From contig CADCTB010000003.1 of assembly GCA_902805665.1 (NCBI GenBank), forward strand, positions 1 through 35,759: a stretch of 35,759 bases of DNA, read 5' to 3'. A program made the translations under genes and the position numbers. Of the stretch, positions 2,816 through 33,584 are shown piece by piece (the first letter of the stretch is position 1; each line of letters begins with the position of its first letter). Source of the stretch: an uncultured Acidimicrobiales bacterium. GTDB lineage: Bacteria > Actinomycetota > Acidimicrobiia > Acidimicrobiales > AC-14. The notes under the pieces were generated by a model. That model ran no database searches. It saw only the letters and a program-made list of their open reading frames with translations, and was not told where the DNA came from.

Positions 2816-3828
2816 GCGCCGACCTCGGTCTCGGGCTGGGTTGGCGCCACGCCCTCGCGGCCGTGCCGTTGCGGCGGGACCATCTCGGATTCCTCGAGGT
2901 GGTGGCCGAGGCCGTCCCCACCGGGCGACCCCTCCCCCCGGCGCTGGCGGCGGCCCGGCGTCGGGGGGTCCAGGTGGTGCCCCACGGCGTGCGCCTGTCG
3001 TTGGGTGGAGCCGATCGTCCCGACCCCGCCCGGTTGGCCCACCTGGCGACCCTCGCCGACCGCCTTGATGCGCCGTTGGTCAGTGAGCATGTTGCGTTCG
3101 TCCGGGCGGGAGGACGAGAGGCCGGCCACCTGCTTCCCGTTCCCCGGACCCGGCTGGCGCTCGACGTGCTCGTGCACAACGTGACCGAGGCCATGGCCGG
3201 CCTGCCGGTACCGCTCGCCTTGGAGCCCATCGCCACCCTGTTCGAGTGGCCGGACGCCGAGCTCGACGAGGCCGCCTTTCTCGCCGAGCTGCTCGACCGC
3301 ACCGGCGCGCTGCTGTTGCTCGACGTGGCCAACGTATGGGCCAACGCCCGCAACGCCGGCTCCGACCCGATGGCCCTCATCGAGGCGCTACCTCTTGACC
3401 GGTTGGCGTACGTGCATGTCGCCGGTGGGACGGAGCGCTCGGGCCTCTACCACGACACGCATACGCACCCCGTCCCGGCAGGTGTCCTGGAACTACTGGG
3501 ACGGCTGGCCGACCGGGTCGACATCCCGGGCGTCATGCTGGAGCGTGACGGCGACTTCCCGCCGACCGAGGAGCTCGACTGCGAGCTGGACGCGATCAGG
3601 GCTGCCGCTCACCCGACGGGTGGCACCCCGCCCGTTCGAATCCCGCCGCCCCTTCGGCAGTCGTCGGAGCCGTCCGGCCGTCAGCGGCGGCGGCTGGCCG
3701 TCGAGCAGGCCGCCCTGGTGAACGCCCTCGTCGACAGGACGGCGCCGCCGCCGCGCTTCGACCCGGTCCGGCTGGGTGCTGCCGGGGCCGCCCTCGCGGT
3801 CAAGCGTCAGGAGATCGGTATGTCGTGA
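2812..3828 (+). CDS. DUF692 family multinuclear non-heme iron oxidative enzyme (MNIO)
   Basis: A 338-residue protein whose ATG overlaps the upstream stop (ATGA). The DUF692 TIM-barrel metal-ligand pattern is visible in order: GLGLGWR at the N-terminus, PHGV (H58), SEHV (E92, H93), GHLLP (H106), LALEP (E138), LLDVANVWANA (D171, N174), YVHVAGG (H202), HDTHTHP (H214, D215, H217, H219) and LERDGDFP (E244, D246). Characterised members (MbnB, TglH) use two or three irons and O2 to rearrange cysteines in ribosomally made peptides. A ~60-residue helical extension (RRRLAVEQAALVNALV to the end) follows the barrel and resembles a C-terminal module seen in other actinobacterial DUF692 proteins. No short precursor peptide is nearby; the only Cys-rich candidate substrate is the tail of the upstream protein. 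Confidence 0.9.
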   Translation: MSADLGLGLGWRHALAAVPLRRDHLGFLEVVAEAVPTGRPLPPALAAARRRGVQVVPHGVRLSLGGADRPDPARLAHLATLADRLDAPLVSEHVAFVRAGGREAGHLLPVPRTRLALDVLVHNVTEAMAGLPVPLALEPIATLFEWPDAELDEAAFLAELLDRTGALLLLDVANVWANARNAGSDPMALIEALPLDRLAYVHVAGGTERSGLYHDTHTHPVPAGVLELLGRLADRVDIPGVMLERDGDFPPTEELDCELDAIRAAAHPTGGTPPVRIPPPLRQSSEPSGRQRRRLAVEQAALVNALVDRTAPPPRFDPVRLGAAGAALAVKRQEIGMS

Positions 3829-29274: not shown

Positions 29275-29778
29275 ATGTTCGTGCTCGGGATCGATCCAGG
29301 GGTGTCGCGATGCGGCTACGGCTGCGTCGAGGGAGGGCCTGGCGCGGCGCCGCGCGTTGTTTCGGTGGGCGTGTTGACCACCCCGCCGTCCGACGCGCTT
29401 CCCGGGCGGCTGGCTGCACTCGACACCGACCTGCGGGGCCTGGTCGCCGAGTTCCGGCCCTCGGTCGTGGCCGTGGAGCGGGTGTTCTTCCAGGTCAACG
29501 CCCGGACGGCCATGTCGGTCGGGCAGGCCAGCGGCCTGGCCCTGGTCGCCGCCGCCCAGGCCGGATGTGAGGTGGTGCAGTACACGCCGAACGAGGTGAA
29601 GCAGGCGGTCGCCGGCTACGGCTCGGCGCCCAAGGAGCAGGTCCAGCGCATGGTCCAGACGCTCCTGGGCCTCGCGGAGCTGCCCAGCCCGCCCGACGCC
29701 GCCGATGCCCTCGCCCTCGCGCTCTGCCACCTGGCCATGGCCCCCATGCGGGCCCGGGTGGCGGCGAAGAGCCGATGA
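29275..29778 (+). CDS. ruvC: Holliday junction resolvase RuvC
   Basis: 167 residues from ATG 29275. It is an RNase H-fold endonuclease that resolves four-way junctions with RuvAB. The acidic catalytic residues are visible: Asp7 (GIDPGVSRCGYG), Glu68 (AVERVFF), and Asp141/Asp144 (PPDAADALALALCH). The stop overlaps ruvA as ATGA. Length is typical. Confidence 0.97.
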   Translation: MFVLGIDPGVSRCGYGCVEGGPGAAPRVVSVGVLTTPPSDALPGRLAALDTDLRGLVAEFRPSVVAVERVFFQVNARTAMSVGQASGLALVAAAQAGCEVVQYTPNEVKQAVAGYGSAPKEQVQRMVQTLLGLAELPSPPDAADALALALCHLAMAPMRARVAAKSR

Positions 29779-30377
29779 TCGGAAGACTGCGGGGCACGCT
29801 CGTCCATCGCTCCCATCGTGGCGAGGTGGTCCTCGACGTGGGCGGGGTGGGCTACCGGATCAGCGTGTCGCCGGCCACGAGCGTCGCGCTGGGCAACATC
29901 GGCGACGAGGTCGTGGTCCACACCCACCTGCACGTCCGCGAGGACGCGCTCACCCTGTTCGGCTTCGCCACCGCCGACGGTCGGGACTGCTTCGAGTCGC
30001 TCCTCGGGGCCCACGGTGTCGGCCCCGGTCTGGCCCTGGCCATCCTGTCGACGCACGGGCCGAACGAGCTGCGCCGCGTCGTGATGGAGGCTGACCTCGA
30101 CGCCCTCACGCTCGTGCCCGGCGTGGGCCGGAAGACGGCGGCCCGGCTCCTGCTGGAGCTGAAGTCCCGGCTCGACGTGCCCGAAGGCGCCGGCTTCGAG
30201 GCCGACGGCGGGGCCGGCGGCACGACCGGCTCTCCGAGGGCCGACGTGCGGGCCGCCCTGGCCGCCCTCGGCTACCAGCCCGAGGAGGTCCGCAAGGCCA
30301 TGGGCCAGCTGCCGTCGGAGGGCGACCTGACCACCCTCGTCCGCACCGCTCTCCAAACGCTCGGGCCCAGCCGGTGA
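29775..30377 (+). CDS. ruvA: Holliday junction branch-migration protein RuvA
   Basis: 200 residues from ATG 29775, overlapping ruvC. The N-terminal OB-fold (MIGRLRGTLVHRS, VGYRISV), helix-hairpin-helix pair (LLGAHGVGPGLALAIL; LVPGVGRKTAARLLLELK) and the flexible linker plus C-terminal RuvB-binding domain (ADVRAALAALGYQPEEVRKA) are all present. RuvA grips the junction and loads RuvB. Its stop lies in GTGA, followed not by ruvB but by a chain of repeat-encoded mini-frames. Confidence 0.97.
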   Translation: MIGRLRGTLVHRSHRGEVVLDVGGVGYRISVSPATSVALGNIGDEVVVHTHLHVREDALTLFGFATADGRDCFESLLGAHGVGPGLALAILSTHGPNELRRVVMEADLDALTLVPGVGRKTAARLLLELKSRLDVPEGAGFEADGGAGGTTGSPRADVRAALAALGYQPEEVRKAMGQLPSEGDLTTLVRTALQTLGPSR

Positions 30378-30390
30378 CCGGAACAGCGAC

Positions 30391-30617
30391 GCGCGCAGCG
30401 ACCGGATGACGACCGGAGCGAGCACGGCGAGCCGGGCTGCCGGCCCTGCCGGAGCGCAGTGGAGGCCGTTGCCGGAAGCCCATCAGGGCTCGGCGCGCGC
30501 AGCGACCAGATGACGGCCGGAGCGAGCACGCCGAGCCGGGCTGCCGGCCCTGGCGGAGCGCAGTGGAGGCGGTTGCCGGAAGCCCATCAGGGCTCGGCGC
30601 GCGCAGCGACCAGATGA
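30391..30617 (+). repeat. Tandem 104-bp repeat forming coupled mini-frames between ruvA and ruvB
   Basis: Two full 104-base units (30391-30494 and 30495-30598; I count five differences) are followed by a partial third that runs into ruvB. Each unit contains an 11-base stem, GGGCTGCCGGC with GCCGGAAGCCC (30434-30444 with 30471-30481, and again 104 bases later), with one G/A mismatch. The register is exact for translation: the ruvA stop overlaps a GTG 11-codon frame (30374-30409), then 35-codon frames at 30406-30513 and 30510-30617 follow, each joined by ATGA, and the last overlaps the ruvB ATG. The function of the element is unknown. A diverged copy lies between secD and secF. Confidence 0.85.
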
Positions 30618-31645
30618 CAAGGAACGAGCTGCTGACGCCCCTGTCGGGGCCGAGCGAGCAGCCCGAGGAGGTGACGCTGCGGCCCCGCCGGCTCGAGGAG
30701 TTCGTGGGCCAGGCCCAACTGCGCCAGCACCTCGAGATCCTGTTGGAGGCGGCTCGTCGCCGGGGCGAGCCGGCCGACCACCTGCTGCTGGCCGGGCCGC
30801 CCGGCCTCGGCAAGACCAGCCTGGCCGGCATCGTCGCCGCCGAGATGGGGGTGACCCTGCGGGTGACGTCGGGGCCGGCGCTGGAGCGCGCCGGCGACCT
30901 GGCCTCGGTCCTCACCAACCTCGACGAGGGCGACGTGCTGTTCATCGACGAGATCCACCGCCTGCCCCGGGTGGTGGAGGAAGTGCTCTATCCGGCCATG
31001 GAGGATTTCCAGCTCGACATCGTCCTCGGCAAGGGCCCGTCGGCGCGCTCCCTGCGCCTCGACCTGCCCCGCTTCACCCTCGTGGGGGCCACCACCCGCA
31101 CCGGGCTGATCACCGGTCCGCTCCGCGACCGGTTCGGCTTCGTCGCCCGCCTGGACTACTACGACGTGGCCGAGCTGGAGGCCATCGTCGTGCGGGCCGC
31201 CCGCATCATGGGCGTGTCCCTCGATCCGGCGGGCGGCCACGAGGTGGCCCGGCGGGCGCGGGGCACGCCCCGCATCGCCAACCGGCTGCTGCGCCGGGTC
31301 CGTGACTACGCCGAGGTGCGGGCCGACGGCGTGGTCACCGAGGCGGCCGCCCGCGACGGACTTGCCCTCTTCGAGGTCGACGAGGCGGGGCTCGACAAGG
31401 TCGACCGGGCCATCCTCGTGGCGGTGTGCCGGCGCTTCGGAGGCGGCCCGGTCGGGCTCTCCACCCTGGCCATCTGCGTCGGGGAGGAGCCGGAGACCGT
31501 CGAGGACGTCTACGAGCCGTTCCTCCTGCAACTCGGGCTGCTGCAGCGCACCCCCAGGGGACGCGTGGCCACCCCGGCGGCGTGGGCCCACGTCGGCTTG
31601 GAGGCGCCCGAACCGGGCTCGTCGACCGCCGCCCTGTTCAGCTAG
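30614..31645 (+). CDS. ruvB: Holliday junction branch-migration ATPase RuvB
   Basis: 343 residues from ATG 30614. The frame is open further upstream, but only through the repeat. Walker A is GPPGLGKTS (61-69), Walker B FIDEIHR (~110-116), sensor 1 GATTRTG and the arginine-finger region GPLRDRFGF. The C-terminal winged helix covers [11 protein letters not shown] to the end. It is an AAA+ hexameric motor pumping DNA through the RuvA-bound junction. No Shine-Dalgarno precedes the ATG; translation probably depends on termination of the preceding mini-frame (inference). Confidence 0.97.
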
Positions 31646-31687: not shown

Positions 31688-32005
31688 ATGGGACCCCTTC
31701 TCGCGCTTCTCATCACCTTTGGCCTCATGTGGGTGCTGCTGATCCTTCCGCAGCAGCGCCGCATGAAGCAGCACCAGGCGGTGGTCGCCTCCCTGCGCGC
31801 CGGTGACGAGGTGGTCACCGCCGGCGGTGTGTACGGCACCATCACCTCGGTCGACGAAGACACGCTGGCCGTCGAGGTCGCCCCCGGCGTCGTGCTGCGG
31901 GTGCTGCGCAGCGCGGTCAGCCAGCGGGTCGGCCCCTACGACACAGACGAGGATGACGAGGACGACGACGTGATCGACCCGACGCCGGACAAGGACGGGC
32001 TCTGA
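31688..32005 (+). CDS. yajC: Preprotein translocase subunit YajC
   Basis: 105 residues from ATG 31688. A single membrane helix (3-20, LLALLITFGLMWVLLILP) is followed by the YajC motif QQRRMKQHQ, then LRAGDEVVTAGGVYGTI. The C-terminus is a long acidic tail (DEDDEDDD). YajC accompanies SecDF in the inner-membrane translocon. The stop overlaps the secD ATG by one base (TGATG). A possible -10 TACCCT lies at 31650-31655. Confidence 0.95.
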   Translation: MGPLLALLITFGLMWVLLILPQQRRMKQHQAVVASLRAGDEVVTAGGVYGTITSVDEDTLAVEVAPGVVLRVLRSAVSQRVGPYDTDEDDEDDDVIDPTPDKDGL

Positions 32006-33480
32006 TGCGACGTAGGCCTTTCTATTCCTTGATCGCGGTGTTCGTGCTGGTCATCGGCGCGCTGGCGGCAACCCTGATCTCCGGCCGGAGCCCGCAGCTC
32101 GGCCTCGACCTGCAGGGTGGGGCGTCGGTGGTCCTGCAGCCCCGGGAGCAGGTGCCCCAGGGCGTGCTCGACCAGGCCATCGAGATCATCAGGAACCGGG
32201 TCGACGCCCTCGGTGTGGCCGAGCCGGAGATCACCCGGCAGGGCGAGTCGATCATCGTGTCGCTACCCGGTGTGCAGAACCGCGAGCGGGCGCTGCAGGT
32301 GGTCGGCCAGACCGCGCAGCTCCTGTTCCGCCCGGTCATCCAGCAGCTGCCCGCGGAGCCGACGCCCACATCGTCGACCTCCTCCACGTCGACGACCTCG
32401 ACCACGGTGGAGGGTGCTCCCGCCACGTCGCCGACCACCACCACCGTCCCGATCGACCTCAGCTCCACCACCGCACCCGAGGACGACGACGAGACCAAGC
32501 AGGTGATCCTCCCCGAGAAGGACTCGCAGGGCCGGGTCACCTCCCGCTACCTGCTGGGGCCGGCCGAGGTGAAGGGCCAGGCGCTGTCGGGGGCCTCGGC
32601 CACCGTGTCCGAGACCGGCTCGTGGCAGGTGGCGTTCGACCTCACCGGCGAGGGCACCAAGCAGTGGAACGACATGGCCACCAAGGTCGGCGCCGGCAAC
32701 CAGATCGCCATCGACCTCGACGGCGTCGTGAGGTCCGCACCCCGGCTGGAGGTCACCGAGTTCCAGGGCAGCGGGGTCATCACCGGCAACTTCAGCCAGG
32801 CCGAGGCCAAGGACCTGGCTCTCGTGCTGCGCTACGGCGCACTGCCCGTCCAGCTCGACCGCCAGACCGTGCAGACCGTCTCGGCGAGCCTCGGCCGCGA
32901 CTCGCTGCGGGCCGGCCTCATCGCCGGGGCGGTCGGCCTCGGCCTCGTCGCCCTCTACATGCTCGTGTACTACCGGGCGCTCGGGCTGGTCGTCTGGGTG
33001 GGGCTGGCCCTCACCGGCGCCATCATGTACTCCCTGGTCACCCTGCTGGGCAGGACCAGTGGGCTGGCCCTGAGCCTGGCCGGGGCGACGGGCATCATCG
33101 TGTCGGTCGGCGTGACGGTGGACTCCTATGTCGTCTACTTCGAGCGTCTGAAGGACGAGATCCGGTCGGGCAAGACCATCCGCTCGTCGCTCGACCGCGG
33201 ATTTTCCCGGGCCTATCGCACGATCCTCGCGGCCGACGCGGCATCGATCATCGGCGCCGCCGTCCTCTACGTGCTGAGCGTGGGGTCGGTCCGGGGCTTC
33301 GCCTTCTTCCTGGGCCTCACCACCCTGCTCGACCTCTTCACCGCCTACTTCTTCACCCGGCCCATGGTCATGTTGCTGGGCCGTAGCCGGCTCTTCACCG
33401 AGGCCCGCTGGGTCGGTGTGGCCCGAGGCCTGAACGCCGCGCCGGCGGTGGCCAGCCCGAAGGTGAAGGAGCCGGTATGA
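32005..33480 (+). CDS. secD: Protein translocase subunit SecD
   Basis: 491 residues from ATG 32005. There is an N-terminal membrane helix, the LGLDLQGGASVVL motif (family LGLDLxGG), a periplasmic domain, and five C-terminal helices with TGIIVSVGVTVDSYVVYFERLKDE and SLDRGFSRAYRTILAAD. SecD with SecF uses the proton-motive force to pull exported proteins out. Residues ~115-165 are an inserted low-complexity Ser/Thr/Pro/acidic linker within the periplasmic part, common in actinobacterial SecD. Its stop overlaps the start of a repeat-encoded 35-codon frame instead of secF. Confidence 0.96.
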   Translation: MRRRPFYSLIAVFVLVIGALAATLISGRSPQLGLDLQGGASVVLQPREQVPQGVLDQAIEIIRNRVDALGVAEPEITRQGESIIVSLPGVQNRERALQVVGQTAQLLFRPVIQQLPAEPTPTSSTSSTSTTSTTVEGAPATSPTTTTVPIDLSSTTAPEDDDETKQVILPEKDSQGRVTSRYLLGPAEVKGQALSGASATVSETGSWQVAFDLTGEGTKQWNDMATKVGAGNQIAIDLDGVVRSAPRLEVTEFQGSGVITGNFSQAEAKDLALVLRYGALPVQLDRQTVQTVSASLGRDSLRAGLIAGAVGLGLVALYMLVYYRALGLVVWVGLALTGAIMYSLVTLLGRTSGLALSLAGATGIIVSVGVTVDSYVVYFERLKDEIRSGKTIRSSLDRGFSRAYRTILAADAASIIGAAVLYVLSVGSVRGFAFFLGLTTLLDLFTAYFFTRPMVMLLGRSRLFTEARWVGVARGLNAAPAVASPKVKEPV

Positions 33481-33584
33481 GCGAGCACGTCGGCCCGGCC
33501 TGCCGGCCCTGCCGGAGCGGAGCGGAGGCGGCTGCCGGACGGCCGTGGAGGGCCGACGAGCGCAGCGACCAGGAGGCACTATGA
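33477..33584 (+). repeat. Third, diverged copy of the junction repeat, between secD and secF
   Basis: The sequence from GAGCGAGCACG through GCGCAGCGACCAG aligns with the ruvA-ruvB repeat with small indels. It forms a 35-codon frame whose ATG overlaps the secD stop and whose TGA overlaps the secF ATG. The stem is kept at the same 48-base span (33497-33507 with 33534-33544), and one base pair is swapped from G-C to C-G compared with the ruvAB copies. The peptide frame differs from theirs, so the nucleotide sequence, not the peptide, is what is shared. It also provides AGGAGG (33571-33576) as the ribosome site for secF. Confidence 0.75.

Follow-up and report, generated by a model that had tools for sequence, protein, structure and literature searches.

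Between ruvA and ruvB, the window (the whole stretch of 35,759 nt that was analysed, from a draft genome of an uncultured Acidimicrobiales bacterium) carries a tandem repeat in which stop and start codons overlap again and again. This raises the question of how an operon junction can take up repeated DNA and still offer a ribosome leaving ruvA a path to ruvB. An earlier note on this DNA had claimed a chain of 11-, 35- and 35-codon frames with GTGA or ATGA overlaps, made by a 104-bp tandem repeat, and this description is exact to the base (Table 1). Four tetramers, GTGA at 30374 and ATGA at 30406, 30510 and 30614, lie 32, 104 and 104 nt apart, each distance being 2 mod 3, and, by the sequence and its open reading frames, every junction from ruvA through the three mini-frames to ruvB is a four-base GTGA or ATGA overlap. 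Mini-frame 1 holds a partial repeat unit, its 3' end; covariance-model matches within the array lie at 30414-30522 and 30518-30626. Pfam finds RuvC, RuvA, RuvB, YajC and SecD around the array. Elsewhere in the window, at 2701-2816, there are imperfect GC-rich tandem repeats with periods of 6, 9, 18, 21 and 36.

The ruvB ATG at 30614 is supported, because ruvB of the same-genus genome G001 has the same MTRNELL N-terminus; it begins TTGACGCGAAACGAG there and overlaps the G001 ruvA stop. A caveat to this assignment is that the frame is also open farther upstream, to a GTG at 30563. No Shine-Dalgarno core lies within 20 nt upstream of this start, and both units of the array are without such a core, ATGA occupying the position that GGAG has in other copies. 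A second copy in the window follows secD and precedes a gene that we take to be secF; its tetramers are 104 nt apart, with a 35-codon mini-frame and AGGAGG ahead of the start. At the secD junction of G001 and G002, both of the same genus, there is a bare ATGA and the element is absent.

Table 1. Features of the window at the ruvA-ruvB and secD junctions.
Feature	Position	Strand	Basis or remark
ruvA, upstream gene of the chain	29775..30377	+	stop within GTGA 30374-30377; Pfam RuvA_N, HHH_5, RuvA_C
mini-frame 1, 11 codons, GTG (30374) to TGA (30407-30409)	30374..30409	+	next start 32 nt on
mini-frame 2, 35 codons, ATG 30406 to TGA 30511-30513, ATGA to ATGA	30406..30513	+	
mini-frame 3, 35 codons, ATG 30510 to TGA 30615-30617, ATGA to ATGA	30510..30617	+	
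family A tandem array, period 104, 2.2 copies, 96% match	30390..30618	+	Tandem Repeats Finder
hairpin core, first full unit	30415..30508	+	profile match; consensus stem
hairpin core, second full unit	30519..30612	+	profile match; consensus stem
ruvB, start ATG in ATGA 30614-30617	30614..31645	+	Pfam; N-terminus common to G001
secD, gene upstream of the second copy	32005..33480	+	ORF list, Pfam
second family A copy	33477..33584	+	ATGA (secD stop, 33477-33480) to ATGA (next gene's start, 33581-33584)

Extent and placement of family A

The ruvA-ruvB array is a member of a dispersed hairpin family, which we call family A and which is presumably mobile. A DNA search of the genome (a draft of 3.52 Mb in 227 contigs) gives 35 matches to the repeat; the covariance model R1, built from 31 copies, gives 48 matches at E up to 1, grouped in 38 arrays, and arrays of two or three units occur at several loci. 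A chance repeat or an assembly artefact is ruled out by these 48 matches in 38 arrays, by the empty sites and by the family-wide register rule described below. Two observations concern the draft itself. The contig ends at C182:16-339 (L011) and C89:5726-5911 (L016) both break inside the same 107-nt unit and are probably the halves of one array split by assembly. The near-identical short contigs C160 (L012) and C161 (L014) share one junction, with TTGA for GTGA in one of them, and are probably strain variants within the draft genome.

The family is narrowly distributed. Searched in 60 genomes at E up to 0.001, R1 matches elsewhere only G001 (two short matches) and G049, a genome of the same order (one match); the order is represented by about 50 families in the sample of 60 genomes, a diversity that may speak against Mycobacterium as host. 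In a wider search of 397 genomes of the order, with E up to 1e-5, matches are again confined to this genome, G001 and G049, nine candidates having been scored per genome, so that the rarity figure is a lower bound. The G049 match (G049:C20:1755-1862, L086) is weak, comes from another family of the order and likewise lies between TGA and ATGA, and G001 holds short forms without the apical stem (L296 4986-5096 on C158; L084, C181:35867-35921). At the gathering score, Rfam gives no match in the window and only one tRNA in eight copy-bearing loci. Spread on plasmids or phages was rejected for want of matches, of family A and of family B (below) in the plasmids and of family A in the phages. A 20-base core is uninformative as a marker in named genomes, many unrelated genomes being among the matches listed; for the 12 loci picked by this core, the best score is 32.8 bits.

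The consensus of family A consists of RTGA (the upstream stop), a long imperfect hairpin, CCAGGAGACAC and a second RTGA (the next start). In alignment A1 (31 of the 43 profile matches, with partial, tandem and near-duplicate copies omitted), 15 of the 26 stem pairs are changed on both sides with pairing kept; there are 62 such cells against 14.3 in shuffles, and 95.0% of the cells are paired against 85.3%. The first full unit at ruvA-ruvB has a minimum-energy fold no better than shuffles, and of six single copies folded by energy, five have z above -1.5 and one -2.45. Single copies thus mostly fold no better than shuffles, and the stem rests on covariation.

The copies are placed at gene junctions. 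Judged by their exact end tetramers, 19 of the 38 arrays have a coding frame ending at the left TGA and 23 have one beginning at the right triplet, with both in 14; of the 4463 RTGA sites sampled over 400 kb of this genome, 85 end a frame, 1183 begin one and 41 do both. Arrays and background were counted with identical thresholds and a rough codon model, without a gene finder; a looser window gives 21, 23 and 16 of 38 for the arrays, the matched count being the one given first. The excess is strong at the left and for both ends together, and a coding start on the right is about twice as frequent as in the background. At 24 of the 38 arrays at least one of the two coding tests fails, in some through contig edges or the rough codon model, and C106 is counted as failing although a coding frame clearly ends at its tetramer, also in G001 and G002. 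Clear NTGA boundaries are missing in 10 of the 48 matches. The first 85 residues of ten downstream genes resemble housekeeping genes: TsaD, a PLP enzyme, an amino acid kinase, a Mg-chelatase type ATPase, NAD ligase, a NuoK type protein, QRPTase, malate/lactate dehydrogenase, a class I tRNA synthetase and an OB-fold protein just below the Pfam cut-off. The finer names used here (argB, thrC, nuoK, mdh, yggS and the like) are our assignments from their sequences. The earlier note had asked whether copies sit at gene junctions and in register: the junction placement is far above background and the register is kept, the opposite of random intergenic sites without frame register.

Empty sites and reading register

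When the flanks of the element were joined and aligned to G001 and G002, 22 loci could be compared (C161 was omitted as a near copy of C160). At 16 of the 22, the ruvA-ruvB and secD junctions among them, one or both relatives have A/G/T-TGA precisely where the flanks meet; the joined query itself contains the tetramer, which leans the alignment toward it. The ruvA-ruvB empty site has TTGA in G001 and ATGA in G002. The six other loci are C114, C172, C189 (two loci), C82 and C94: the empty site of C172 is off by one base, CTGA stands at C114 and at one of the C189 loci and GTGG/ATGG at the other, and at C82 and C94, where the joined-flank alignment gave no clear join, tblastn finds overlaps of GTGA (G002) and ATGA (G001), respectively. 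The upstream frames picked by tblastn were wrong at several loci (C108 and C106, for example), because the overlapping frame aligned. Other insertions occupy some junctions in the relatives: before argB, G002 has a family B unit where this genome carries family A, and the thrC, nuoK and mdh junctions hold other insertions in G001.

Single-function tetramers occur as well. At C84 the upstream gene ends at a TAG 8 nt ahead of the tetramer, which serves only as the downstream start, and at C173 and C227:20522 the tetramer is no more than a CTGA stop; these cases hint that the tetramer itself is the target of insertion. A duplication of the tetramer as target site was considered and is too weak to claim: the left and right tetramers share their first letter in 23 of 33 copies, and the right end of family B is mostly GTGA regardless of the left.

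As to the register of family A, NTGA stands at both ends in 38 of the 48 matches, and 33 of these are start-capable on both sides. Measured from start to start, 31 of the 33 span 2 mod 3 (104 nt in 20 copies, 107 in seven, and 98, 101, 110 and 146 once each), a distance at which the mini-frame stops at the right TGA; it does so exactly in 30 of the 33. By contrast, none of the five CTGA-ended copies (four loci) has a 2 mod 3 distance. Where the length differs from 104, 9 of 11 loci are 2 mod 3 (binomial 0.0014), or 8 of 10 (about 0.003, by hand) if C182 and C89 are taken as one locus. The copies are related, and the +3 variants C128, C156 and C182 share one left end, so these counts overstate independence; most of the statistics are drawn from one genus. 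The two exceptions are C60 (102 nt) and C106 (109 nt), and at C96 the mini-frame ends one ATGA early. In the C60 copy (L024, G000:C60:16631-16739), the reading frame continues open into the downstream gene, and the element may now be an N-terminal extension of that gene. A tandem pair of short units in G001, 54 nt apart, does not keep the 2 mod 3 register.

Given that no internal stop interrupts the frame in 30 of the 33 start-capable copies of family A or in 52 of 54 of family B, the mini-frame could encode a functional small protein repeated throughout the genome. This is highly improbable, since variation at codon positions 1 and 2 is as high as at position 3: minority letters amount to 0.169, 0.221 and 0.146 at the three positions in 16 family A copies, and family B is similar. 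Compensated indels also shift the internal frame, as in C150 and C152. A conserved small protein was thus rejected, codon-position variation giving no sign of one. The peptide is under no visible coding constraint, and the register alone is kept.

Family B and further hairpin elements

A second family, B, apparently unrelated to family A, is present in this genome and its congeners. It consists of RTGACCGGCCCGGGAGGCCGGTC, followed by a second hairpin terminating in RTGA, and example loci are L337:1501-1699, L319:1365-1572 and L020:4962-5115. Model R2 matches 37 times in this genome (G000), 28 in G001 and 61 in G002, some matches being antisense on the same palindromes, and a few times in others, so that 11 of 31 genomes have matches; a search of 396 phylum genomes, at 12 candidates scored in each, adds three others, all weak. 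Family A and B units can adjoin: in L034 (C70), at about 2998-3170, a family A unit is directly followed by a family B unit, so that mixed chains occur.

The statistics of family B use 64 matches from 61 + 64 listed, with weaker, antisense and repeated entries omitted. NTGA stands at both ends in 54 of the 64, and 10 are without a clear boundary. The distance is 2 mod 3 in 52 of the 54, with lengths of 44, 50, 59, 62, 65 and 68 nt, and all 52 in-register frames stop at the right TGA; the two exceptions are 66 and 69 nt long. Here a stem, TCAY pairing with RTGA, has the downstream start codon as its 3' side. In alignment A3 (19 of 22 copies of 68 nt), 9 of the 22 stem pairs are changed on both sides, and four of four copies beat nearly all of 200 shuffles in folding. 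The 50-nt subclass (alignment A4, 10 of 10 copies) is weaker, with two pairs changed on both sides, a number reached by 382 of 500 shuffles; its covariation score is equalled by none of the 500.

These hairpins might simply act on the mRNA, in stability, termination or REP-like stalling near stop codons, the small frames being a by-product of GC-rich, stop-poor sequence. Stems covary in both families, and ribosome stalling is reported for E. coli REPs that lie no more than 15 nt from a stop codon (PMC12306157). An action of this kind leaves unexplained why 31 of 33 start-capable but 0 of 5 CTGA-bounded copies have a 2 mod 3 distance, and why the unrelated family B keeps the register in 52 of 54; we regard it as distinctly unlikely. 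A different possibility is that the element spaces the genes apart and brings a ribosome-binding site of its own, by which the next gene is freed from coupling. Shine-Dalgarno-like cores, by a simple measure (4 to 6 nt, 3 to 12 nt ahead of the start) and as raw counts, stand at 21 of the 33 start-capable right ends of family A and at 29 of 54 in family B, so coupling may be unneeded at those ends. Yet the two ruvA-ruvB units have no such core, the family B start codon is buried in a stem, and the register rule would serve no need, which together make independent re-initiation rather unlikely. Serial coupling through the mini-frames, in which the register has a use, is the reading that we follow below.

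Further chains were sought by walking from RTGA stops in three 400-kb samples. Of the RTGA stops, 39 of 74, 43 of 79 and 41 of 76 overlap a start directly, and 13, 11 and 12 lead on through one or more mini-frames, against 4, 4 and 2 when the walk is begun in another frame; the chains include chance links of 8 to 26 nt, and the register is a condition of the walk, so that the further hairpin types found by it are no evidence for the register rule. At gene junctions of G001 and G002, the walk meets further RTGA-bounded hairpin repeats of 62, 152-164, 77 and 80 nt (L282 5762, L287 8556, L293, L295, L287 7433, L309 18390 and L299 10448), which are apparently separate families.

We tentatively suggest, at somewhat less than an even chance, that the genus carries a guild of unrelated hairpin elements, namely A, B and probably four or more others, which have converged on one design: to target a stop/start overlap, to rebuild that overlap on both sides and to keep the start-to-start distance at 2 mod 3. 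Under the same suggestion, the family B start within its stem would be reachable mainly by a ribosome arriving from upstream. If this is true, insertion would be transparent to the ribosome, and family B would turn a passive insertion into a coupling gate.

Proposed coupling across insertions, and known systems

We propose the following for family A. It probably inserts at DTGA tetramers, mostly where an upstream stop overlaps the next start in an operon, and its RTGA ends and 2 mod 3 register would keep the two genes coupled. Insertion, presumably by transposition, would leave RTGA at each end; the left RTG would overlap the upstream stop and open a short frame across the element, and at a 2 mod 3 distance this frame would end at the TGA of the right RTGA, itself overlapping the next start. 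A ribosome terminating upstream could then start again, translate across the element, terminate once more and begin on the next gene, and coupling would survive the insertion. Tandem duplication would add identical links. DTGA target sites were reportedly proposed for MIRU by Supply et al. 1997. The idea of the earlier note, of serially coupled frames in which each duplication adds a link, finds support at the level of sequence in the register, the placement and the tandem units, and the view that serial coupling is the selected feature is well supported by the same comparisons. Whether the number of units also sets the RuvB:RuvA ratio is a separate matter: arrays of two or three units at several loci are consistent with such a dose control, as each link could shed some ribosomes, and we consider it unlikely.

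The empty sites, together with the loss of register where there is no start codon, provide comparative evidence for selection on overlap coupling at many junctions. The units may serve as ready-made parts for testing how far a ribosome passes along an overlap chain. Gene-finding programs that annotate the mini-frames as proteins, or overlook them, would misread such junctions.

Three known systems bear comparison. Termination-reinitiation at ATGA overlaps is a known process (PMC6728339), and the ancestral junctions resemble such overlaps at most of the loci compared; the difference is that in the present elements the overlap has taken up units and is restored at either side of them. REP and BIME elements are likewise short palindromic intergenic repeats of high copy number, some of them near stop codons, but an exact stop-to-start placement and a register rule are not among the REP features described in the part of PMC12306157 that was available. 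A REP is reportedly defined as a palindrome of 20-40 nt tagged by GTAG or CGTC (PMC3733652). Mobilisation of the RAYT/REP type was rejected, as no Y1 transposase (PF01797) was found in any of the 11 genomes searched, this draft and 10 relatives, with 5 of 14 control genomes positive.

The closest likeness is to the MIRUs of mycobacteria. The earlier note had held that no described element works this way, and this does not stand: a 2025 review, citing Supply et al. 1997, describes MIRUs as mobile mycobacterial repeats whose insertion site is a start codon, whose internal ORF is coupled to the next gene through a -4 nt overlap, and which probably affect the gene hit only slightly (PMC12548453). 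In the literature searched, which lacks most subscription literature, no description of such elements outside mycobacteria was found. The likeness extends, at the sequence level, from insertion at start codons and an internal ORF overlapping the next gene by 4 nt to further points. The senX3-regX3 MIRUs have tandem units of 77 and 53 bp (PMC4213456), which are also 2 mod 3, as in families A and B; between rnc and fpg, several other mycobacteria have no more than a few bp of a MIRU-VNTR region (PMC2734929), a picture like that of the empty sites of family A; and the units are interspersed as well as tandem, as family A is with 48 matches in 38 arrays and family B with 37 in the same genome. Family A, likened by description and known here from its sequence, would thus work like a MIRU, and the findings suggest that MIRU-like insertions which preserve coupling are more than the peculiarity of one element. 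The difference is that here several apparently unrelated families with covarying hairpins share one design within one genus. New beside the MIRUs are these several families, the aligned empty sites, the natural register control, and the covarying hairpins, one of which buries the downstream start.
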